Shown piece after piece: positions 1,788 through 40,457 of a DNA stretch of 41,066 bases. Under the pieces are notes generated by a model. The model worked only from the letters and a program-made list of their open reading frames with translations. It was not told the origin of the DNA and ran no database searches. The first letter of the stretch is position 1, and the number at the start of each line of letters is the position of its first letter. This DNA is from a virus: positions 1 to 41,066 of the IMG/VR virus record IMGVR_UViG_3300010371_000454. The stretch is one strand, 5' to 3'. Both the position numbers and the translations under genes were made by a program.

Positions 1788-1995
1788 TGAGTGCGGCCCA
1801 GTTCGGACCGTTTGAGGTTACAACTTCCTTGCCCTCAAGCCAAGCCCGGGCGTGAAAGCGGGACACGATCACACGTCGCCCATCGCGCTGGTGCGGGATG
1901 CCGTGTGCTTTCAGCCACTCCTGCTGTTCGGCAGCACGGGCGAACCCGGTCAGATCGTGCAACGCGGCAGGCTTCAGGAATTCGTCGTCGCTCAT
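1780..1995 (-). CDS. DUF4224 protein, likely excisionase-like
   Basis: This 71-residue basic protein fits the DUF4224 family: an N-terminal segment FLKPAALHDLTGFARAA followed by a helix pair with WLKAHGIPHQRDGRRVIV. The pattern resembles a small winged-helix DNA-binding fold. DUF4224 genes are commonly placed directly before phage integrases, and here the gene overlaps int by 8 bp. An excisionase or directionality role is therefore likely but inferred from position and fold. Confidence 0.75.
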   Translation of the reverse strand: MSDDEFLKPAALHDLTGFARAAEQQEWLKAHGIPHQRDGRRVIVSRFHARAWLEGKEVVTSNGPNWAALNA

Positions 1996-2249
1996 GGCGC
2001 GTCACCTTCATATGCCGGACCGGGAATCTCCCGAGTTTCGCCCGTCTCCTTGATCGTCAAGATAACGCTGTGGATTTCTCCCATCTTTCCATCATCGACC
2101 CATGTGAATCTTTGCGACATGGCGCCAATATCCGCAAGGCTCTTCGAGAAGTTGTAATGCGCGACCAAGTCAGGGATCATGCGTGCGAATTTCTCCGGGG
2201 AGAGCGCCAGCATCTGGCTAACGGTCTCAATTTCATAGCGATCGCTCAT
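1992..2249 (-). CDS. Hypothetical phage protein (85 aa)
   Basis: I do not recognise a family. The first half is helical and acidic (SDRYEIETVSQMLALSPEKFARMIPDL is split by hydrophobic positions typical of a helical bundle), followed by a beta-rich half with a VDDGKMGEIHSVILTIK segment. It joins its neighbours through a 4-bp ATGA overlap on each side, which supports translation. It is expected to be expressed early from PL. Confidence 0.7.
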   Translation of the reverse strand: MSDRYEIETVSQMLALSPEKFARMIPDLVAHYNFSKSLADIGAMSQRFTWVDDGKMGEIHSVILTIKETGETREIPGPAYEGDAP

Positions 2250-2644
2250 GGCGTCCTGCCTCCAATCTTGGCCGCGGCATAGAGGACGGCGCGCGGCAGC
2301 GGCTTTAGACCAGGGTGCATAAAGAAATCTGGATAGACCACCATCTGCCCGTTGTGCGCGTAGGTGGGCTTCTTGCTCTCGTGGCGATGCACGATAGTCT
2401 TAGGGATGGACTGAAAAATCTCAACTTTGGGCGCAGGAAGTTGAAAAATCAAGCCGCGTTGTTTCGATGATTCCTCGCGCACCATCCGATTCAAATCCCC
2501 GATCGCTCTGATCGCGCCATCCATAGCGTTGTAGGCGCGAGTCATCCACGCAATCGCGGTTGCCTGGGTATCACACTTGCGAAGACTGCGCATCAACTCG
2601 TCCATTTCTGACACCAGCAATTGTTGTTTTTCTTCTGTGTTCAT
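2246..2644 (-). CDS. Hypothetical phage protein (132 aa)
   Basis: Unrecognised. Residues 1-65 are strongly helical with heptad-like spacing, and the C-terminal half is rich in Pro, Lys and His with a HNGQMVVYPDFF strand-like motif. It starts inside an ATGA overlap with the short DUF1643-like stub upstream and ends in an ATGA overlap with the next gene, so it is coupled in the leftward operon. Confidence 0.7.
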   Translation of the reverse strand: MNTEEKQQLLVSEMDELMRSLRKCDTQATAIAWMTRAYNAMDGAIRAIGDLNRMVREESSKQRGLIFQLPAPKVEIFQSIPKTIVHRHESKKPTYAHNGQMVVYPDFFMHPGLKPLPRAVLYAAAKIGGRTP

Positions 2645-2703
2645 GGAACCGCGCGCTCCAGCCGGTAGCGGTACTGGCCGCGGTCGGAGATGATGGCGCT
2701 CAT
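2641..2703 (-). pseudogene. N-terminal stub of a DUF1643-like gene
   Basis: A 20-codon frame reads AIISDRGQYRYRLER near its start and stops after four more residues. This resembles the beginning of DUF1643 proteins, which are normally about 150-200 residues. The stub keeps overlapping start and stop codons with both neighbours (ATGA at 2641-2644, and its ATG overlaps the TGA at 2700-2702). The simplest reading is an internal deletion of a former accessory gene with the translational coupling preserved. Assignment rests on about 16 residues of remembered similarity. Confidence 0.5.
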
Positions 2704-2930
2704 GATCGTTTTGCTTCCATCACCACGCGGGGATCGTAGTAGCCCGATGTGTCAATAAACAGGGCGCGAGCGCGGTGATAACCCTTCATGCGGGCCGCCG
2801 CCAGCGACATGGCGCGCTCTGCCGTTTTGAGCTTCCCAGTCACGTCTTTCCATCGGCGTGCTCCGTGGCGACGCACCTGGCCGATGTAGTAGCCGGTAGG
2901 CCGATTGATGTGGATGTGAATTTCGCTCAT
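2700..2930 (-). CDS. Hypothetical phage protein (76 aa)
   Basis: This small basic protein has an N-terminal beta segment (EIHIHINRPTGYYIGQVRR), a central helix (KTAERAMSLAAARM) and a C-terminal segment containing YDPRVVMEA. It looks like a compact alpha/beta DNA- or RNA-associated fold, but no family is assigned. It is coupled by ATGA to the upstream gene. Confidence 0.7.
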   Translation of the reverse strand: MSEIHIHINRPTGYYIGQVRRHGARRWKDVTGKLKTAERAMSLAAARMKGYHRARALFIDTSGYYDPRVVMEAKRS

Positions 2931-3634
2931 GGTGCCTCCTTGCTGGCGGCAATGGCTGTGTCGATGGCTTCACGCAACGTGCGCACCATGTTTCCAGGGC
3001 GCAGACCGAGACCGTGAGCGCTCGGGTTGGCACCATCATGCAGATGGATGGCCCCGTTCTGGTTGATCTGCAGCTCCAGCCAATCAATCCGCGTCACGTC
3101 CTCCTCAAGCTCGGCGATGCGGTCTTTGAGTACATCGATCTCATTGACCACGGTATAAAACGCCAGGCTGGCGTCGTCCCGCTCCTGTACGAGGGCGGTG
3201 ATAGCTTGCTCAACATCACTCCTATATACCAATTGCGCAGGGTTAATCCAATCTGGCCTTTGCTTCGCGGTGCACCGATATGACCCGTTATCTCGCCACG
3301 CAACCGTTTCAATTCCCTGCATCACCTCCGCCACTCCCTGCGGCGCTGGCGCTGCTTTGTCGGCTTTGAGCACATCACGCTCTTGCACGAGGGCGGTGAT
3401 GGCTACTCTGGCGTCGTCGCGCAACTGGCTCAAAAATGCCATCCTGTGTTCATTGTCAAGGACTTGATCCTCGAACTGGAGCCTGCGCATCAATTCCGCC
3501 AATCCCAGTGGCGCGGGCTGGGAGAGGGCGGCTTGCCAGCCCTTTTCAAACGCCTCCAAGAGCGACATCTTGCCGTGCGCAAGTGCAACCAGGCCAAGGT
3601 GTTCAATGACTGCCAGTTTGAGTGCTTCGCTCAT
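2927..3634 (-). CDS. Hypothetical coiled-coil phage protein (235 aa)
   Basis: The start at 3634 (MSEALKLAV) is preferred over an upstream one because it forms an ATGA overlap with the preceding gene. Residues about 55-165 contain repeated ITALVQERD segments (at least two copies), suggesting internal duplication in a helical region. The C-terminal part (RIDWLEL ... IHLHDGA ... LREAIDTAIAA) is a module I recognise from many small phage accessory proteins, without known function. Confidence 0.7.
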   Translation of the reverse strand: MSEALKLAVIEHLGLVALAHGKMSLLEAFEKGWQAALSQPAPLGLAELMRRLQFEDQVLDNEHRMAFLSQLRDDARVAITALVQERDVLKADKAAPAPQGVAEVMQGIETVAWRDNGSYRCTAKQRPDWINPAQLVYRSDVEQAITALVQERDDASLAFYTVVNEIDVLKDRIAELEEDVTRIDWLELQINQNGAIHLHDGANPSAHGLGLRPGNMVRTLREAIDTAIAASKEAP

Positions 3635-5126: not shown

Positions 5127-5581
5127 GCTGCTTCCTTTGCCGGCGCCGCGATGGTCAGCAGGTTCGAGCTGATGGCTGTCTCCAGGACGGTCTTGCCGGT
5201 GCTGAGCAAAATCTGGCCAAGGAACGCGCCCTCGAATGTGAGCACGCCCGTCTCGATCGCCATGACCTGGCCCTTTATCCAGTCGCGCAAGATGCTGCAC
5301 ACGCTGATTTCTGCCTGCTTCATGGCCTTGGCCTCGTGTGCTGTCCTGGTGCCGCGCGTGCGGGCGCCGTAGGGGTGCTCCTTGAGCCACGCGGCGGCGT
5401 AGCCGCGGTAACTCGCCTTGGCGGTCACGTCATGGCCGCGGTAGGTGAACTGCACGACCATTTCGCCGTTTTCGGCGTCGGTCATGGTGCCGAACCGTGC
5501 GCAACCGAATTTGGTCAGCAGCTTGCGGATGTCTTCGAGGGCCGCGCCGCCGCTGGTGGCGTTTTCGTAGGGGAGGCTCAT
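5123..5581 (-). CDS. Hypothetical phage protein (152 aa)
   Basis: An alpha/beta N-terminal half (LTKFGCARFGTM ... MVVQFTYRGHDV) is followed by a helical half (KAMKQAEISVCSILRDWIKGQ). It resembles a conserved phage protein often found beside exonuclease/RecT genes, so a role near recombination is possible. Function unknown. It lies 91 bp downstream of the exonuclease gene, the largest gap in this operon after the leader. Confidence 0.7.
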   Translation of the reverse strand: MSLPYENATSGGAALEDIRKLLTKFGCARFGTMTDAENGEMVVQFTYRGHDVTAKASYRGYAAAWLKEHPYGARTRGTRTAHEAKAMKQAEISVCSILRDWIKGQVMAIETGVLTFEGAFLGQILLSTGKTVLETAISSNLLTIAAPAKEAA

Positions 5582-5598
5582 GGTTTCTTTCGTTGGGT

Positions 5599-5666
5599 GG
5601 CCCCGCTAACTGCAGCCGGTGCGCTCCCCCTGGAATCCCATGGGGCCGACCATCCGCTGCGGGGCC
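5599..5666 (-). other. Inverted repeat with tiny ORF between exonuclease gene and next gene
   Basis: GGCCCCGC (5599-5606) and GCGGGGCC (5659-5666) form a perfect 8-bp inverted repeat in an otherwise tightly packed operon. On the minus strand the enclosed 52 nt hold a 15-codon frame (5653-5606, starting MVGPMGFQGE) without a good ribosome binding site. It may be an RNA processing or attenuation hairpin, or a gene remnant. Confidence 0.3.
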
Positions 5667-5672
5667 GTAAAA

Positions 5673-6716
5673 TTAGGCGACTCGTTTCGTTTGTACGCCT
5701 TGAATGTGCGCGACAAGCCGGGCGCAGATCAGCTGGAAATCTTCGCTGTGATACAGGCAAGACGCCTTGACCTTGGTCGCCTCGAAGCCCAGTCCCTTGA
5801 GAAAATCGGCGGTCAGGTTGAAGCCCAGCCGCGTGCCAATCGCGCCCAGCGTCAGGGTCGGCGGCGTGGCTGGTGCTGGCTGCGCGTGGCGCATCGGGAC
5901 GACATTGGCGGCCACATCAAGCTCGCGGTGCGTTGCGGCAAACCGTTGCGCGCCTTCTGCCTCGTTCAGCGCATGCGCGGCTGGTGACAATTCGGCGCCT
6001 GCGGGGTTTTGCTTCGCTGTCGCCAGTTCGGCCTGGTCCTGTTCCTCGGCAACATCCAGTTCCAGCATTTCGACTTTGCCGAAAATCGACTCGTACATCA
6101 GCACCATGGCGCGGAACTCAATCAGGTCCTTTTCCATCTGCTCAATGAAATTCTCATCACGAAAGACGCGCTTCACGAACAGTTCATTCCCGACGGTCTC
6201 AAGCTCCGGAACGAATAGTACGAAATCGCACCAAGCGCGACCCGTGATCCACAGGCCCCCCTGCATCTGGTGCTCGTAGTCCGACACATCCCCATTCTTG
6301 AGAATTCCGACAATCTTGTCACTGGCAGTCAGGCACTTGATTTCGACCATGCCGTCGCTGTCCACAAAGCCATCGGTTGAATAGCCAAACCAACGGTCAT
6401 CCGTGAACACGATGCCGGACTCTTCGGCCATCAATCCGGTCTTCATTTCGTAGGCGCGCCGTGCTGCTGCTTCGCGCTCGTGGCCACGTCGCATGGCGAA
6501 CGTCTCAAATGTGTCGCCGTAGGGCTGGCCGCTGATGCGCTCGATGGCAATATCGCCCGCGTACTTTTCGGCGGCGTTGCTGGGATCGCCGGCCTTCTTG
6601 TCTCCAGACGTTCGCTTGAGTTTTTCGCAGGCGATGTGGAACATGCTGGCGGTGCAGGCCCCGGCGCGCGCGGCGTGCCATTCCGGCGAGCCCTGGACGT
6701 GGTTCTCGAAGATCAT
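5673..6716 (-). CDS. YqaJ/lambda-exonuclease family recombinase
   Basis: This 347-residue protein should be the 5'-3' double-strand exonuclease of the phage recombination pair, producing 3' tails for the RecT-like partner encoded immediately downstream. Visible family motifs are GSPEWHAARAG (9-19), GHEREAAARRAYE (78-90), STDGFVDSDGMVEIKC (113-128) with acidic/Lys active-site residues D115, E125 and K127, and the QMQGGLW motif after it. Residues about 285-345 form a separate C-terminal module (LGAIGTRLGF ... LKGLGFEA) seen on several phage proteins, probably winged-helix-like. Confidence 0.9.
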   Translation of the reverse strand: MIFENHVQGSPEWHAARAGACTASMFHIACEKLKRTSGDKKAGDPSNAAEKYAGDIAIERISGQPYGDTFETFAMRRGHEREAAARRAYEMKTGLMAEESGIVFTDDRWFGYSTDGFVDSDGMVEIKCLTASDKIVGILKNGDVSDYEHQMQGGLWITGRAWCDFVLFVPELETVGNELFVKRVFRDENFIEQMEKDLIEFRAMVLMYESIFGKVEMLELDVAEEQDQAELATAKQNPAGAELSPAAHALNEAEGAQRFAATHRELDVAANVVPMRHAQPAPATPPTLTLGAIGTRLGFNLTADFLKGLGFEATKVKASCLYHSEDFQLICARLVAHIQGVQTKRVA

Positions 6717-9245: not shown

Positions 9246-9448
9246 GCGGCCTCCCGTGCGGCGAGCATGGCGTCTGCCTGCTTGTATGCCCAGCTGGCAC
9301 GATCATCGAATGAAAATTCGGCGCCAAACGGATTTATTGCTGCAGCTTCCATCGCCTTCGCGGCGAAGTAATCTCGCAGGTCAACCGGCAGCATGACGGG
9401 CGCCGCGGCAGTGTGCAGTTGGCTGCTGCTTTTCGTTGTAGTGTTCAT
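9242..9448 (-). CDS. Conserved small phage protein (68 aa)
   Basis: The start MNTTTKSSS is chosen because the frame upstream overlaps the neighbouring gene. The core LRDYFAAKAMEAAAI ... ASWAYKQADAMLAARE is a pattern I recognise from many phage and prophage small proteins: DYFA segment followed by a Y..AD.ML.AR helix. Function unknown. Confidence 0.75.
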   Translation of the reverse strand: MNTTTKSSSQLHTAAAPVMLPVDLRDYFAAKAMEAAAINPFGAEFSFDDRASWAYKQADAMLAAREAA

Positions 9449-9450
9449 GC

Positions 9451-9708
9451 TCACGCTCCCCGCGCAACAGCTGCATTGCGCATGTCTTGCCGGTAGGTTG
9501 GAGACGCGCGGTACGCTTCTTCTGCAGCTTCGAGCGCATCGTTTTCGATGATGGCCGTCAGCGATTCGCACAAGTCCAGCAGCGCCTCACCAGCCGGCGT
9601 ATTGGCACTGATGCGAACCAGCATGGCGCGGGCAATGTCCAATGCATCCTGCTCGTTGAAACCAGCGGTCAACCTGATTGCGTTGATCGCGTCCTGTGCG
9701 GTTTTCAT
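9451..9708 (-). CDS. First gene of the PL operon, small helical protein (85 aa)
   Basis: An all-helical 85-residue protein (TAQDAINAIRLTAGFNEQDALD ... is followed by LLDLCESLTAIIENDALEAAEEAYR). A strong Shine-Dalgarno sequence AGGAG lies 8 nt before the ATG. In lambdoid phages the first PL gene is often the antiterminator N, but this protein lacks an obvious Arg-rich N-terminal motif, so no such role is claimed. Confidence 0.7.
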   Translation of the reverse strand: MKTAQDAINAIRLTAGFNEQDALDIARAMLVRISANTPAGEALLDLCESLTAIIENDALEAAEEAYRASPTYRQDMRNAAVARGA

Positions 9709-23779: not shown

Positions 23780-23802
23780 GCGCCGCAGCGATTGGTAAGT
23801 AG

Positions 23803-23822
23803 CCGCCTGAGGGCGGTTTTTT
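23803..23822 (+). terminator. Intrinsic terminator after portal cluster
   Basis: CCGCC-TGAG-GGCGG is followed by six T residues. It lies between the portal-linked genes and the scaffold. In a Q-modified late transcript it should be read through, so it may set the stoichiometry of head proteins or act before induction. Confidence 0.8.
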
Positions 23823-35010: not shown

Positions 35011-37044
35011 ATGGGACTCCAAAACTGGTCCACCACCCCTGCGAATAACGCGAACGCCGCGCCAAATATCAATATGGCGACCGGCTCGGCACCTTCCACT
35101 GTACACCCGTCCGTGCGCCAGATGATGGCCGATGTCGCCAGCTGGTATGCAGACCCGGAATGGGTGTTGCAGGCCGATACGCCGACCTACATCAGCGCGA
35201 CCTCTTTCACGGTGCCGACGAATCGCACCGCGACCTATTCGGTGGGGCGCCGCATCCAGATGGCCGGACCCGGCATCGGTACGCCCTACACGATCAATGG
35301 CACCATCACGGCAAGCGCCTTCGGGACGGTGACCACGGTGACCGTTCAGTGGGACTCGGGCTCGCTTGACAACACGGTGAGTAGTGTCGGGGTCGGCATT
35401 CTGCAGAATCAGCTATCGAAGCTACTCTCCGACCTCGCCAACACCACCGACCTCGCCAACAACACCGACATGACCAAGGGCGTTGCGTTCGTCGGTGGCG
35501 CCGCTCGAGTCGTTGCCAGCATCTCCGCGCTGCGCACGCTGCCGAAGACCGGCTCGCCCGAGGTATTCGTGACCGGGTACTACACCCAAGGCGATGGCGG
35601 CGGCGGTGCCTACTGGTACGACGCCACCGACACAACGACCGCGGACAACGGAGTCACTGTCATTGTGGCCTCCGATGGTGGTCGCTGGAAACTTGCATCG
35701 CAAGCGGAACTGAGCCTCAAGCAGGTGGGCGCAAAAGGCGACTGGGCCACCGATGACAGCGCTGCGTTCCAGTTCATGGCGACGAACACTTTGCAGCGCG
35801 GTTGGGTTATTCCCGAAAGTCTCTACAAATTCAACACCGCCATTAATTTCGATTACTCGGCTGGCGGATTTCCGACTCCAGGCACAAGGAGCGCCCGCGC
35901 CTGGATTCGTGGGGCCTCTCGCGCCAATACGATTCTTGGCTACAACGGGTTGAACTTCGCCATCAACATGACGGGCTCTCCCGCGGGGCTGGCTGGCCAG
36001 GGCATTTATTCGCTGGACAAGCTGTCCGATTTCACGCTGGAAGACAACTCGTTTACCCAGAAGAATTCAGGTATTTACCTGCTACGCAAGGAGTTCTTCA
36101 AGCTTGAAAACCTGCTGATCTCCGGTATGCAGGACGCCGTGCGAATCGACAGCTGCTTCAGCTCTGCGATTAACAATCTGACCGTGATGGGTTGTCAGAA
36201 TGGCCTGGACTTACGGGATTCAGGAGACGGGGCGCCCAATGCAATATGGGTCAGTGAGGCCGAATTCCAAAGCTGCTCTTTGGTGGGGATTACAGCAGCT
36301 CAGATGGGGGGTGCGAATCGGTTCTCCGCAGTTAATTGCGAAGCCTGCGGAACCCAAGGCAATGCCGCAACGGGCGGCATCTACCTGAACTTCACCGGAA
36401 CCACGGCGGCTGGTCCGATTCGCTTCGACTCCTGCCACTTCGAGCAAAACGCCGGTGGCTTTGACGTGTCGATCATCAACGCAGCCACCACTGCGGGAAC
36501 CGAATTGGTTGTGATTTTTGATCACTGTTCTTTCAACAGGGCATCATCCACAGATTACACGACATACAACATCCTGCTGCGAAATAACACCGGGATGAAG
36601 ATCAAGTGCATTCTGATTGGATGCAGTTTCACCTCGACGGGTAGCTATGTCCCCAGCGCAGCGCGGCCATTTATATCGGGCGATGCTTTCACCGAGATTA
36701 TTGACTATGGCAGCACATATAACGAGGCAACATCTTTAGGTCACAGCAACACACACGGTCGGACAATGGCCGGGCAGGTTAGCGCAACGGGCGTTCTATC
36801 TTCGGGTCCGCCGCAAATTTCAGTGGTGCACACCGGAACGGGCGTGTATGACGTTACGCACAACTCGCAGTTTGCTTTTGACACGCTAAGTTATTTCGTA
36901 ACCGCCCTGGCGAACGACGGAGCCGGAATCAAGGTCGAGCGCATCGCGTACATCTCAAAGTCACACTTTACCGTGGTGGTTTCAAACACAGCGGGAACAT
37001 TGACAGATGGCGCCTTCACTTTCATGGTCATGCAGGTGAATTGA
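35011..37044 (+). CDS. Tailspike with pectate-lyase-like beta-helix
   Basis: The 677-residue protein has an N-terminal attachment domain (residues 1-150, with TTPANNANAAPNINMATGSA and VHPSVRQMMADVASWYADPE), a linker with TGYYTQGDGGGGAYWYDATD and the typical LKQVGAKGDWATDDSAAFQF start of a pectate-lyase-3 beta-helix (about 235-540), and a C-terminal beta-rich trimerisation domain. It should recognise and perhaps cleave surface polysaccharide. The N-terminal domain does not resemble P22 gp9. AAGGAC precedes the ATG. Confidence 0.88.
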   Translation: MGLQNWSTTPANNANAAPNINMATGSAPSTVHPSVRQMMADVASWYADPEWVLQADTPTYISATSFTVPTNRTATYSVGRRIQMAGPGIGTPYTINGTITASAFGTVTTVTVQWDSGSLDNTVSSVGVGILQNQLSKLLSDLANTTDLANNTDMTKGVAFVGGAARVVASISALRTLPKTGSPEVFVTGYYTQGDGGGGAYWYDATDTTTADNGVTVIVASDGGRWKLASQAELSLKQVGAKGDWATDDSAAFQFMATNTLQRGWVIPESLYKFNTAINFDYSAGGFPTPGTRSARAWIRGASRANTILGYNGLNFAINMTGSPAGLAGQGIYSLDKLSDFTLEDNSFTQKNSGIYLLRKEFFKLENLLISGMQDAVRIDSCFSSAINNLTVMGCQNGLDLRDSGDGAPNAIWVSEAEFQSCSLVGITAAQMGGANRFSAVNCEACGTQGNAATGGIYLNFTGTTAAGPIRFDSCHFEQNAGGFDVSIINAATTAGTELVVIFDHCSFNRASSTDYTTYNILLRNNTGMKIKCILIGCSFTSTGSYVPSAARPFISGDAFTEIIDYGSTYNEATSLGHSNTHGRTMAGQVSATGVLSSGPPQISVVHTGTGVYDVTHNSQFAFDTLSYFVTALANDGAGIKVERIAYISKSHFTVVVSNTAGTLTDGAFTFMVMQVN

Positions 37045-37328
37045 TGGAACCAACCCACGAAGAACTGGCCGCGATGGTTCGCGGCGCTGTCTCCAGCGGC
37101 ATCAAAGATGCACTGCATGACCGTGCAGCGCTTGACCAATTCTGGAATTCTGCCTTTGCCCAGCTCCAGAGCCGAGCGACAAAAGAGACTGGCAGATTCG
37201 TGCTGGGCGGCCTGCGCGGAATCGCATCCAAGGTGCTGATGTTTCTGGTGCTTGGCATGGCGGTCTACAGCATCGGCGGCTGGGCTGCGGTGCACAAGAT
37301 TTGGCATGCGATTTGGGGTGTGCAATGA
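37044..37328 (+). CDS. Membrane protein before endolysin (94 aa)
   Basis: An amphipathic N-terminal 60 residues (THEELAAMVRGAVSSGIKDA, FAQLQSRATKETGRFVLGG) is followed by one transmembrane segment (VLMFLVLGMAVYSIGGWAAV) and a short tail. It overlaps the spike and the endolysin genes (TGATG and ATGA). The place suggests a lysis role such as a class-III holin-like or antiholin protein, but the sequence alone does not show it. Confidence 0.65.
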   Translation: MEPTHEELAAMVRGAVSSGIKDALHDRAALDQFWNSAFAQLQSRATKETGRFVLGGLRGIASKVLMFLVLGMAVYSIGGWAAVHKIWHAIWGVQ

Positions 37329-37969
37329 ACGCGCAAATCACCATTCAGGTCTTGATTGCCGCCGGAATCCATCCTACTCAGGCAAAGCAGTTCGCCGACC
37401 CGCTCAGCGCCGCGATGGCCCTGTTTGCCATTGATACCCCGGCGCGCATCGCCCCGTTCATCGGCCAGACGGCGGTGGAGTCGAATTTGTTTCAAGCGCT
37501 TGAGGAAAACCTGCACTACTCGTCTGCGCAGCGGCTGTGCGAAGTCTGGCCCAGCCACTTCACGTCGCTCGCGGCCGCCGTTCCCTACTTGGGCAACCCG
37601 CGCTTGCTTGCGAACTATGTCTATGCGAACAAAAACGGGAATGGCGACATTGCCAGTGGGGACGGATGGGTGTTTCACGGGCGCGGTCTGATAGACATCA
37701 CGGGACGCGCTAATTACTTGCGGATCGCGCAGATTGCGCAGCGTCCCTACATCGATCACCCCGAGCTGCTGGCGCAGCCATCTGACGCCTGTCTGAGCGC
37801 GGCGGCATTCTGGACATCGCGCAACCTGAACGCGCTGGCCGACGCGGGGAGCATAGACGCCATTACGCGCGTCGTGAACGGCCCCGCGATGCTTCAGGCC
37901 GATCGTCGCCGCACGATTGCGGAAGCAGTGAATCGGGCTCTGACCGAGCAACTCGGAGCACTCGCCTGA
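37325..37969 (+). CDS. GH19 endolysin
   Basis: The 214-residue protein belongs to glycoside hydrolase family 19, phage lysozyme-like chitinase fold: catalytic Glu in GQTAVESNLF (E52), a second Glu in LEENLHYSS (E60 or E61), and FHGRGLIDITGRANY (118-132), then HPELLAQPSDACLSAAAFW. It should cut the peptidoglycan glycan strands at lysis. There is no clear signal peptide, so a holin is needed for release. Confidence 0.92.
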   Translation: MNAQITIQVLIAAGIHPTQAKQFADPLSAAMALFAIDTPARIAPFIGQTAVESNLFQALEENLHYSSAQRLCEVWPSHFTSLAAAVPYLGNPRLLANYVYANKNGNGDIASGDGWVFHGRGLIDITGRANYLRIAQIAQRPYIDHPELLAQPSDACLSAAAFWTSRNLNALADAGSIDAITRVVNGPAMLQADRRRTIAEAVNRALTEQLGALA

Positions 37970-37993
37970 TCCACTCCCGCCACTCCAAACAGG

Positions 37994-38016
37994 CCGCCCA
38001 TTGAGGCGGTTTTTTT
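37994..38016 (+). terminator. Terminator after endolysin
   Basis: CCGCC-CATTGA-GGCGG followed by seven T residues. The ATG of the HNH gene follows at once, so that gene would need readthrough of this terminator. Confidence 0.85.
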
Positions 38017-38373
38017 ATGCCCATCTTCAAACACTTGATCGATGTCGCCCAAGGCAAGCATCCGATCACCGCGAAACGGTCTGGCGAATGGCCGCGTGTG
38101 CGCAAGGAACACCTGGCACTGCACCCTGTATGCGAGATGTGCGGTGGCTCTGAAAAGCTGGAAGTGCATCACATCCGGCCTTTCCATCTGCACCCCGATC
38201 TGGAATTGAGCCCGGACAACCTGATCACGCTGTGCGAAGCCGACCGGGATGGCGCGAACTGTCACCTGTTGTTCGGACATTTGGGCAATTTCAAGAGCTT
38301 CAACGTCAACGTGAAAGCCGACGCGGCGCTGTGGCATGAAAAGGTCACGCATCGCCCGCTGGCTGACGCCTGA
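38017..38373 (+). CDS. HNH endonuclease
   Basis: The 118-residue protein has CEMC (39-42), LEVHHIRPFH (49-57, with H51-H52), N68 in SPDNLITLCE, C73 and CH (82-83) and GHLGNF: a zinc-supported HNH domain as in phage packaging-associated HNH proteins. Such genes usually lie next to the terminase; here it sits inside the lysis module directly behind a terminator. It may be a packaging nuclease or a mobile endonuclease. Confidence 0.9.
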   Translation: MPIFKHLIDVAQGKHPITAKRSGEWPRVRKEHLALHPVCEMCGGSEKLEVHHIRPFHLHPDLELSPDNLITLCEADRDGANCHLLFGHLGNFKSFNVNVKADAALWHEKVTHRPLADA

Positions 38374-38399: not shown

Positions 38400-38630
38400 A
38401 TGAACCTCAAGCTCGCCATCATCATCGTTATGGGTACCGTCGGCTACATCGCATGGGGCCTGCTCGCGTACTTCGTTGACCGCTCCCAGATGGGCGGATT
38501 CATCGCAATCAATATCTCGATGGTGAGCGGCACCATCGGCCTCGCACTGCGCGACCTGCAGTATCCGAACGAGCCGCCCGCAGGTCAAGCAGCACCACCC
38601 ACGCCGTCTGTCACGCCGCCTCAGTCCTGA
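38400..38630 (+). CDS. Putative holin (two membrane spans)
   Basis: The 76-residue protein has two hydrophobic segments (LAIIIVMGTVGYIAWGLLAY and GGFIAINISMVSGTIGLAL) separated by a short charged turn (FVDRSQM), and a Pro-rich hydrophilic C-terminus. Size and topology fit a class-II holin that permits endolysin release. It lies between the HNH and a lipoprotein gene in the lysis module. Confidence 0.75.
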   Translation: MNLKLAIIIVMGTVGYIAWGLLAYFVDRSQMGGFIAINISMVSGTIGLALRDLQYPNEPPAGQAAPPTPSVTPPQS

Positions 38631-38704: not shown

Positions 38705-39157
38705 ATGAAACATTTCCTCTATGCCTTCATCGCCTCCCTGATCGTCATGTTGCCGGCCTGCACCACCACCGGCGCGCAGCCGAATCTGGCGCAAGTCCGG
38801 CAAGTCGTCACCAGCTTTTGCCCCACGGTCAACACGGATCTGAGCGTCTTGTCCACATCGCCCACTGTGGCTCCTGCGCTCCAGGCTCAATTTAAGCAGA
38901 TGCTGACCATCAATCAGGGCATCTGCGCCGCTGGAGCGGGCATTACCTCGGCCGACCTGCAGACGCTGAACACCCAGGTCGTTCAGGCCGCGATCACGGT
39001 GCTGCTGGCGAATCCGGCGATCCCAAATCAGCCCGCGATTTTGCTTGCGCTGCAGCTCGGCCAGCCGCTGGTCACTCAAGCGATTACGCAGCTTCAGGCT
39101 ACTACCCCTGCAGTAGCTCCCGCCGCGCCTGTTGTGGCTGTTCCTGCTGCGAAATGA
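38705..39157 (+). CDS. Lipoprotein of the lysis module (150 aa)
   Basis: The precursor start MKHFLYAFIASLIVMLPAC has a lipobox ending at Cys19, so the mature protein should be lipid-anchored. It continues with mostly helical sequence (VVTSFCPTVNTDL ... LQAQFKQMLTI ... AAITVLLANPAI) and ends in a Val/Pro/Ala-rich tail. GGAG lies 7 nt upstream of the ATG. It may span or tether membranes like a spanin subunit, but its sequence is not that of Rz1. Confidence 0.7.
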   Translation: MKHFLYAFIASLIVMLPACTTTGAQPNLAQVRQVVTSFCPTVNTDLSVLSTSPTVAPALQAQFKQMLTINQGICAAGAGITSADLQTLNTQVVQAAITVLLANPAIPNQPAILLALQLGQPLVTQAITQLQATTPAVAPAAPVVAVPAAK

Positions 39158-39504
39158 AGCGACTTGCGGCCATCCTGGCGCTCTGCGTGAGCCTGCCCGC
39201 TTTCGCTGCATCGTGCATCGGTGGGCCTGCCATCAGCACCGACAAGACGCTGCACTTTGTCGGGACGGCCGCCGTCAGCGCAGGGGTATCTGCTCTGACG
39301 CAAAACTCCGATATTGGCTTTTGGGCCGGCATTCTGGCCGGAACTGCACGCGAGTTCTACAAGGAGACGCACGGCGGCCGCTGCGAATACAGCTCGATGG
39401 CCTACGACCTGGCAGGCGCAGCAGCGGGAAGTTACGCCGCGCAGCACTGGTACATCCTGCCCAAGCGGGGGGGCGTCGAGATCGGCTACGTGAGGGTGTT
39501 TTGA
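39154..39504 (+). CDS. YfiM-like exported protein (116 aa)
   Basis: It starts with an 18-19-residue signal peptide (MKRLAAILALCVSLPAFA, cut near AASC). The rest resembles the YfiM/DUF2279 group: DKTLHFVGTAAVSAGVSAL, FWAGILAGTAREFYKE, YSSMAYDLAGAAAG. Phages with this gene carry it in the lysis region. Exact role is unknown. Confidence 0.75.
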   Translation: MKRLAAILALCVSLPAFAASCIGGPAISTDKTLHFVGTAAVSAGVSALTQNSDIGFWAGILAGTAREFYKETHGGRCEYSSMAYDLAGAAAGSYAAQHWYILPKRGGVEIGYVRVF

Positions 39505-40142
39505 TGATCCGGCTCGTCGACATGGCCTACTGGGCTTGCATTTGCATCTATCGGCCCATCACTCCGAAGGTATTCCAGAAAGTCATCCAGGTGGGCAATA
39601 TCACCGTGGGTATCGTGTATCAAAACGGTTGCACCGCAATCGTGCTGCCCGGCTCCGAATCGTTGACCGACTGGCTGGCGGACCTGGACGCGCTTCCGCG
39701 CGAGGTGCCTCAGCTCGGCATGGTGCATCGGGGGCTGTGGGAGGGCATGGAAGCCGTCTATGCGGCCGTCAAGCCCCTGATCGTGGGCGACCTGTACCTG
39801 ACAGGCCACTCGAAGGGCGCCGCGCAGGCGGCGAATCTGGCGGCGCTGTGCCTGCTCCATTCTGTGCCGGTGCGCTACCTCGCACTGTTCGAGTCGCCAC
39901 GCGCCGGCGGTCAGCAGTATGCCGATTTCCTCAAGCGCAGCATCAACTCCTATTTTTCATCGCGCAATGGGCTCGATCCAGTGCCTGCCGTGCCGCTGGC
40001 GCCATTCGTCGCGCCGCTGCCGACGACCGATCTCAATATGCCGCCAGCGGGGCTAGAGCGCGCTGTTCCGACCAGCTGGCACCTAGGACCACTGATCTAT
40101 GCTGGGGTGCAGCGCTATGTCGCCAAGGACGCGCCGGCATGA
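39504..40142 (+). CDS. Class-3 lipase-like alpha/beta hydrolase
   Basis: The 212-residue protein shows a full lipase triad: S103 in LTGHSKGAA (99-107), D158 in RNGLDPVPAVPL (154-165) and H193 in SWHLGP (191-196). The oxyanion strand TAIVLPGSESLTDWLADLD (44-62) and YLALFESPRAGG (125-136) match fungal/bacterial class-3 lipases. There is no signal peptide, so it is cytoplasmic until lysis. The start at 39504 follows the preceding stop (TGATG). It could hydrolyse membrane lipids at lysis, comparable in idea to mycobacteriophage LysB, but the substrate is unknown. Confidence 0.82.
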   Translation: MIRLVDMAYWACICIYRPITPKVFQKVIQVGNITVGIVYQNGCTAIVLPGSESLTDWLADLDALPREVPQLGMVHRGLWEGMEAVYAAVKPLIVGDLYLTGHSKGAAQAANLAALCLLHSVPVRYLALFESPRAGGQQYADFLKRSINSYFSSRNGLDPVPAVPLAPFVAPLPTTDLNMPPAGLERAVPTSWHLGPLIYAGVQRYVAKDAPA

Positions 40143-40366
40143 AACGTTTTGAGCACATTTATATCCGTTTGGATAACATCGAGCGCTATCTGGCCGAGCT
40201 GGCGCGCTTTCACGCCGACGCGGGACGGCCTGCGCATGTCGCTGGGGTGCGGTCTGCGCTGTCTAAGATTCGGCGGGAGGTGGCGCGGTCGGATAGGGTC
40301 AAACCGGCTCTTTGCGGAATTGATGCGGAAAAGGTTGCGGAACAAGCTACCGAAACCATAGCATAG
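40139..40366 (+). CDS. Last prophage gene, small helical protein (75 aa)
   Basis: The 75-residue protein, coupled by ATGA to the lipase gene, is helical and charged (HIYIRLDNIERYLAELARF, SALSKIRREVARSDRVK). No family is recognised. It ends 6 bp before the attR core and is the last gene of the late operon. Confidence 0.65.
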   Translation: MKRFEHIYIRLDNIERYLAELARFHADAGRPAHVAGVRSALSKIRREVARSDRVKPALCGIDAEKVAEQATETIA

Positions 40367-40372
40367 AATCTA

Positions 40373-40430
40373 TGGTGCCCGGGGCCGGAATCGAACCGGC
40401 ACGCCTTGCGGCGGGGGATTTTGAGTCCCC
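40373..40430 (-). repeat. attR core within tRNA-Leu
   Basis: Perfect copy of 545-602, containing the tRNA 3' part from the anticodon stem to CCA. The phage-supplied half restores the host tRNA after integration, so the gene at 40373-40457 is a hybrid of host 5' and phage-derived 3' sequence. Confidence 0.95.
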
Positions 40431-40457
40431 TGCGTCTACCAATTTCACCACCCGGGC
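40373..40457 (-). tRNA. tRNA-Leu (anticodon CAA)
   Basis: The minus strand folds as a leucine tRNA: acceptor GCCCGGG with CCCGGGC, a D arm with GGTGAAATTGGTAGAC, anticodon stem GGGGA/TCCCC with loop CTCAAAA (anticodon CAA), a long class-II variable arm, T arm with GGTTCGATTCC and an encoded CCA. It decodes UUG. It is the integration site, restored by the prophage. Confidence 0.96.

Follow-up and report, generated by a model that had tools for sequence, protein, structure and literature searches.

Prophage setting and layout of the late genes

The window, i.e. the whole 41,066-nucleotide stretch of DNA analyzed here (IMG/VR virus record IMGVR_UViG_3300010371_000454), is a temperate, podovirus-like prophage with both of its ends included. 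The att sites consist of a 58-bp exact direct repeat (100% identity) at positions 545-602 (attL, + strand) and 40373-40430 (attR, + strand); attR lies inside a tRNA-Leu(CAA) gene (40373-40457, - strand), and attL is a copy of this tRNA-Leu sequence. An integrase gene (711-1787, - strand; PHROG 1, 3e-16) adjoins attL, and recognisable portal, scaffold, head and lytic tail proteins are also encoded. The portal is a distant relative of portals from LUZ24-type podoviruses, e.g. Pseudomonas phage TL, and near-DNA relatives of the structural region were not found among annotated phages. The tail spike (35011-37044) is a pectate-lyase-like beta-helix protein (PF12708, 2e-6) and likely a polysaccharide depolymerase.

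The late end of the prophage (all features on the + strand) runs in the order transmembrane protein, endolysin, HNH endonuclease, small transmembrane protein, lipoprotein, YfiM-like protein, lipase, 75-aa open reading frame and attR. The first gene (37041-37328), immediately 5' of the endolysin gene, encodes a putatively holin-like protein of 95 aa with one predicted transmembrane helix (residues 53-71). The endolysin (37325-37969) is GH19/chitinase-like (PHROG 181 endolysin, 8.7e-62); its start was read from the sequence, and no signal peptide was apparent. A terminator-like hairpin with a T run (37991-38016) follows directly and immediately precedes the start of an HNH endonuclease gene (38017-38373), homologues of which sit among the lysis genes in several relatives. 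A 76-aa protein (38400-38630), holin-like by position, has one predicted transmembrane helix (residues 5-23); another, less pronounced hydrophobic stretch is visible by eye. Between this gene and the class-3 lipase gene (39504-40142) are encoded a 150-aa lipoprotein (38705-39157) and a 116-aa exported, weakly YfiM-like protein (39154-39504) whose score falls under the YfiM cut-off. The lipase is the last recognised gene of the prophage, ~230 bp from attR, and its end is overlapped by 4 nt by the 75-aa open reading frame (40139-40366), for which no family match was found. The initial annotation had named the endolysin, the holin-like protein and both exported proteins, all of which were recovered as described; it had overlooked the HNH gene, the 75-aa open reading frame and the att sites.

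The lipase open reading frame encodes 212 aa, its ATG overlaps the upstream stop codon by 1 nt, and the chance of its being spurious is negligible. Its designation as class-3 lipase-like was borne out by Pfam Lipase_3 (PF01764; 2.5e-10, 40.8 bits, curated cut-off 22), by PHROG 21992 'esterase/lipase' (4e-23) and by a sequence search of solved structures, in which fungal class-3 lipases were matched (best 2.9e-5). Structure prediction, which had been suggested as a check, recovered the class-3 lipase core fold: the AlphaFold2 model (mean pLDDT 64; core residues ~61-150 mostly >80) matched fungal class-3 lipases of the PDB by Foldseek (best 3.5e-4). Lipase_3 and PHROG 21992 were the only families reported from Pfam and PHROG at E up to 1, with no match to LysB or cutinase, and NCBIfam yielded none. 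A single-sequence query found no close relatives in viral contigs, a weak match to BgManors32 alone among annotated phages and, among genomes, only a weak hit that spans about 52 residues of an Anaerolineae sequence. As previously stated, no signal peptide is apparent by eye.

The catalytic triad had been described as complete. Its first two members are well founded, since all 40 aligned homologues share G101-H102-S103 and D158; position 105, which completes the GHSKG nucleophile motif around S103, is glycine in 39/40. The third is a candidate, H193, arrived at by elimination as the sole histidine after D158. It lies in a poorly modelled segment (residues 173-199, pLDDT <50), and the likely family histidine belongs to a DH motif near the C-terminus, where aligners do not place H193.

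The hairpin at 37991-38016 separates the endolysin gene from the distal genes, and a similar one lies inside the structural genes (23799-23822). Compact GC hairpins with a T run were also seen at many late-gene boundaries of the relatives, often just 5' of the next start (L060, L002, L103 and others), and such elements occur in most lipase-bearing phages. These recurrent hairpins resemble terminators inside operons and may be module-boundary markers. A reading of the hairpin after the endolysin as the end of the operon was not adopted, since like hairpins recur inside late operons.

This layout bears on lysogenic conversion, the main rival to a role in lysis, under which the lipoprotein and lipase genes would form a portable pair (a moron) expressed in the lysogen. 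In that case the lipase might alter envelope lipids, exclude superinfecting phages or serve bacterial competition, with the lipoprotein as its anchor or as a protective inhibitor. The closeness of the lipase to attR, the terminator-like hairpin between the endolysin and the distal genes, and the position of the pair in Shewanella phage QDWS, where it adjoins the integrase gene, are consistent with such a role. However, a crude sigma-70 scan yielded no + strand promoter-like site between endolysin and lipase, and hairpins like this one occur inside the structural genes as well as at numerous late-gene boundaries of relatives. We regard conversion as unlikely, although it deserves more weight than any other alternative considered here.

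A lipoprotein gene paired with lipid hydrolases

The lipase genes of Burkholderia phage BgManors32 and Shewanella phage vB_Sb_QDWS are each directly preceded by a homologue of the lipoprotein gene of the window (38705-39157) and not of the YfiM-like gene. Two viral-contig scans each yielded ~55 lipase relatives, mostly on identical contigs; removal of identical lipases left 50 non-redundant loci, the window included, from a family that was gathered by sequence motifs and is thus biased towards one branch. A homologue of the lipoprotein was found upstream of the lipase in 50/50 of these loci. The initial annotation was right that two exported proteins precede the lipase, but one of them is a conserved partner, and the view of an isolated lipase was incomplete. 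No homologue clustered with the other, the YfiM-like protein (39154-39504), across the 50 loci.

The lipoprotein overlaps or abuts the lipase in 42/50 loci (28 overlaps of 4 nt, 11 overlaps of 1 nt and 3 abutting junctions), and the window is among the 8 loci with an insert. Clustering relied on BLAST with the low-complexity filter off, to which signal peptides contribute; the family is nevertheless recognisable because Cys19 (of the lipobox), Cys39 and Cys74 are invariant in 31 aligned members. In the window lipoprotein Thr occupies the +2 position, and the mature protein retains Cys39 and Cys74. Asp at +2 was found in 0/50 lipoproteins and exactly two mature cysteines in 46/50. The lipobox, together with a +2 residue other than Asp, predicts sorting to the outer membrane.

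A model of the lipoprotein predicts a bundle of four long helices (pLDDT 80), which had no significant relative in the PDB (best E 0.83); weak likenesses, for example to pectin methylesterase inhibitor (E about 4), were set aside. The lipoprotein was not found in annotated phages by single-sequence tblastn, and no description of the lipoprotein-lipase pair was found in the open-licence literature. Two further small proteins were observed near the pair. Five lipase loci (L074, L076, L078, L088 and L101) and patatin loci L229-L231 and L237 encode an additional small lipoprotein, which has a CC motif, just upstream of the lipoprotein or enzyme. In L064, L094 and L107 a small protein with the pattern FECPGC..H...W.FNG...PT is encoded between lipoprotein and lipase, and a similar protein precedes the holin-like gene in L122.

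Locus L122 contains the same holin-like gene and lipoprotein, with a patatin-like phospholipase in the place of the lipase. Using this patatin as query, 17 patatin loci were collected; the lipoprotein lies directly 5' of the patatin phospholipase (PF01734, e.g. 3.4e-28) in 10/17 of them, and a class-3 lipase was detected in none. Furthermore, in a single locus (L177) the gene directly after that of the lipoprotein encodes a DUF1353 protein (9306-9674; PF07087, 3.1e-26). Phospholipase A2 activity has been demonstrated for one DUF1353 protein, and the authors expect it of others and mention prophage homologues (PMC11525133). Three unrelated lipid-hydrolase families thus occupy one position inside holin-endolysin cassettes. 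We consider this interchange, of which the DUF1353 part represents one locus, the strongest evidence that the position serves lipid hydrolysis. L177 suggests a role in lysis for some phage DUF1353 proteins and, if the function of the pair is confirmed, some phage-borne patatins may share such a role.

The lipase could instead act elsewhere in infection (virion delivery, host lipid metabolism or as an abortive-infection effector), its linkage to lysis genes reflecting descent only. Class-3 lipases do vary in substrate and patatins also serve as defence effectors, with P0008 weakly matching models of that kind. This explanation is considered very improbable, as the lipase sits after holin and endolysin rather than among tail or defence genes, and neither the lipase nor the lipoprotein matches any PADLOC model; a reading of the two as a defence system was rejected for the same lack of a match.

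More credible, though still improbable, is that the lipoprotein is an unrecognised spanin, acting alone or with the transmembrane protein 5' of the endolysin, and that the lipase is an accessory that aids release or modifies debris. The lipoprotein is always present and carries a lipobox, a u-spanin-like C-terminal hydrophobic segment occurs in 7/50 lipoproteins (that of the window not among them), and relatives encode, 5' of the endolysin, transmembrane proteins whose N-terminus is charged and whose membrane-spanning segment is C-terminal. In the window and in most loci, however, the lipoprotein ends in a helix followed by an Ala/Ser/Pro tail with no transmembrane segment, and the model consists of four long helices. 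Moreover, an unrecognised spanin would leave the succession of three different lipid hydrolases unexplained.

Rz/Rz1-type spanins in loci with and without the pair

Most surveyed phages use spanins, and phages that lack them are an acknowledged open problem (PMC6139136). Loci were scanned for a charged i-spanin candidate with one transmembrane segment whose gene is overlapped out of frame, or directly followed, by an open reading frame with a lipobox; the scan covers embedded or closely overlapping two-component pairs, and other spanin types may escape it. The 97 controls comprised 80 loci collected by endolysin homology, the rest being relatives of the window tail protein or endolysin without a lipase. 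Rz/Rz1-like pairs were detected in 1/53 lipase loci and 0/17 patatin loci compared to 46/97 controls (Fisher p=1.8e-12, with loci treated as independent despite their relatedness). Antisense false positives numbered 2/53, 0/17 and 0/97, respectively. A stricter version of the scan gave 0/61 lipase loci (not dereplicated), 0/17 patatin loci and 28/97 controls; it was relaxed because the strict lipobox pattern missed a Pfam-supported Rz/Rz1 pair in L098. Applied to annotated Burkholderia phages, the scan detected the pairs of KS9 and BcepC6B, in both of which Rz/Rz1 lies directly 3' of the endolysin, and missed that of KL3. With this limited sensitivity, no Rz/Rz1-type pair was found on either strand of the window, and a scan for u-spanins (lipobox plus C-terminal transmembrane segment) was likewise negative there.

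The loci are related, and the contrast has to be read accordingly. In a tree built from the endolysins of 117 loci, 6 changes of the lipase label are required, at least 4 of them imposed by well-supported branches; in two clades lipase and patatin loci are intermixed. The endolysin of the window is placed apart from other lipase-bearing endolysins, near the Rz-bearing L111 and L148. A phylogeny-corrected comparison of lipase and Rz contained only 3 independent pairs, which were always tied or pointed the expected way (median p=1), and had no power; with so few pairs, significance cannot be claimed for the contrast once descent is taken into account. Among 19 viral contigs related to the window by its lytic tail protein, 3 carry lipase and lipoprotein, and another, L138, carries a typical Rz/Rz1.

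Pfam Rz (PF03245) was found in 1/36 whole records, namely L098, which contains a complete lysis cassette with Rz/Rz1 (1832-3118) and, 2.3 kb further, the lipoprotein-lipase pair (5459-6612). This arrangement possibly represents two neighbouring prophages or true coexistence of both systems. A pair standing apart from a lysis cassette that has its own Rz/Rz1 would suit a conversion gene, but lysogenic conversion leaves unexplained the near-absence of Rz/Rz1 from pair-bearing loci, most of which retain the link to an endolysin.

Both Rz/Rz1 and the lipase system were missing from 36 control endolysin loci. In addition, no lipase could be recognised at the late end of spanin-less phage BPP-1, where the end-of-operon gene was examined and rejected as a lipase; the pair therefore cannot explain all spanin-less phages. 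It is nonetheless a concrete candidate for some of them, with interchangeable enzymes and a conserved partner gene that aids recognition.

Proposed role in lysis and comparison with known systems

The initial annotation had placed the lipase in the lysis module, with lysogenic conversion as the alternative. The first reading is strengthened by the invariant pair beside holin and endolysin genes, the occurrence of patatin or DUF1353 proteins in place of the lipase, and the near-absence of Rz/Rz1-type spanins, while the second retains the low probability given above. We put at about even the chance that lysis by this phage is finished by a lipid hydrolase that the holin sets free, that acts with the help of the lipoprotein and that disrupts the outer membrane, a task otherwise performed by spanins. 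Synthesis and export of the lipoprotein would precede lysis, and its predicted destination is the outer membrane, on the inner face. The lipase, presumably expressed late, has no apparent signal peptide; like the endolysin, it would be confined to the cytoplasm and depend for its release on the opening of the inner membrane by the holin. While the endolysin cuts the wall, the lipase would deacylate membrane phospholipids, and the outer membrane would fail; the lipoprotein may recruit or activate the enzyme, or may instead restrain it. The same route may replace Rz/Rz1 spanins in the lipase- or patatin-bearing relatives. Somewhat more tentatively, at a little under even confidence, we propose that many spanin-less phages of Gram-negative hosts finish lysis through an outer-membrane lipoprotein and one of three interchangeable hydrolases (class-3 lipase, patatin or DUF1353), a route distinct from spanins and disruptins. 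Such a unit would be a variant of the phage lysis cassette and not a wholly new kind of system.

Spanins are a counterpart in position and proposed effect. Rz/Rz1 pairs and u-spanins disrupt the outer membrane in most surveyed phages (PMC6139136) and take the position after the endolysin in KS9, KL3 and BcepC6B, but they link membranes and are non-enzymatic, and the scans found none in the window. A cassette proposed for phage WO contains a patatin phospholipase beside a holin-like gene, which was suggested to replace canonical lysis proteins; however, phage WO infects Wolbachia, lacks endolysin and spanins, and no such lipoprotein was mentioned (PMC9203015).

The annotated phages with members of PHROG 21992 (Burkholderia BgManors32 and Shewanella vB_Sb_QDWS) encode a homologous lipoprotein and lipase in the order seen in the window, while the window lipase is divergent (26-33% identity) and differs in its podovirus-like backbone and YfiM-like insert. 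The named relatives are phages of Gram-negative hosts. Two records, OK094664.1 and OP650936.1, are equal in length (47902 bp) and gave identical match statistics, although their hosts are listed as Shewanella baltica and Tenericutes, of which at least one is doubtful. With fungal class-3 lipases (PF01764; 3ngm, 1tic, 1tgl) the window lipase shares the profile, the GxSxG nucleophile, D158 and the core fold found by Foldseek; it differs in being just 212 aa long, in having no apparent secretion signal and a histidine that is a candidate, and in having a lipoprotein partner within phage lysis cassettes.

For LysB, with which the lipase had been compared initially, no lipoprotein partner is known to us. 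LysB cuts mycolic-acid esters in mycobacteria, whereas the window lipase matches neither the LysB nor the cutinase family, and the comparison holds for a functional analogue and, by the searches made here, not for a homologue. Like the proposed enzyme, LysB is a lipid-ester hydrolase of the alpha/beta-hydrolase fold that belongs to a lysis module and acts on the last barrier (PMC6116114). If the proposed role is confirmed, phages of Gram-negative hosts would gain an enzymatic counterpart of LysB.
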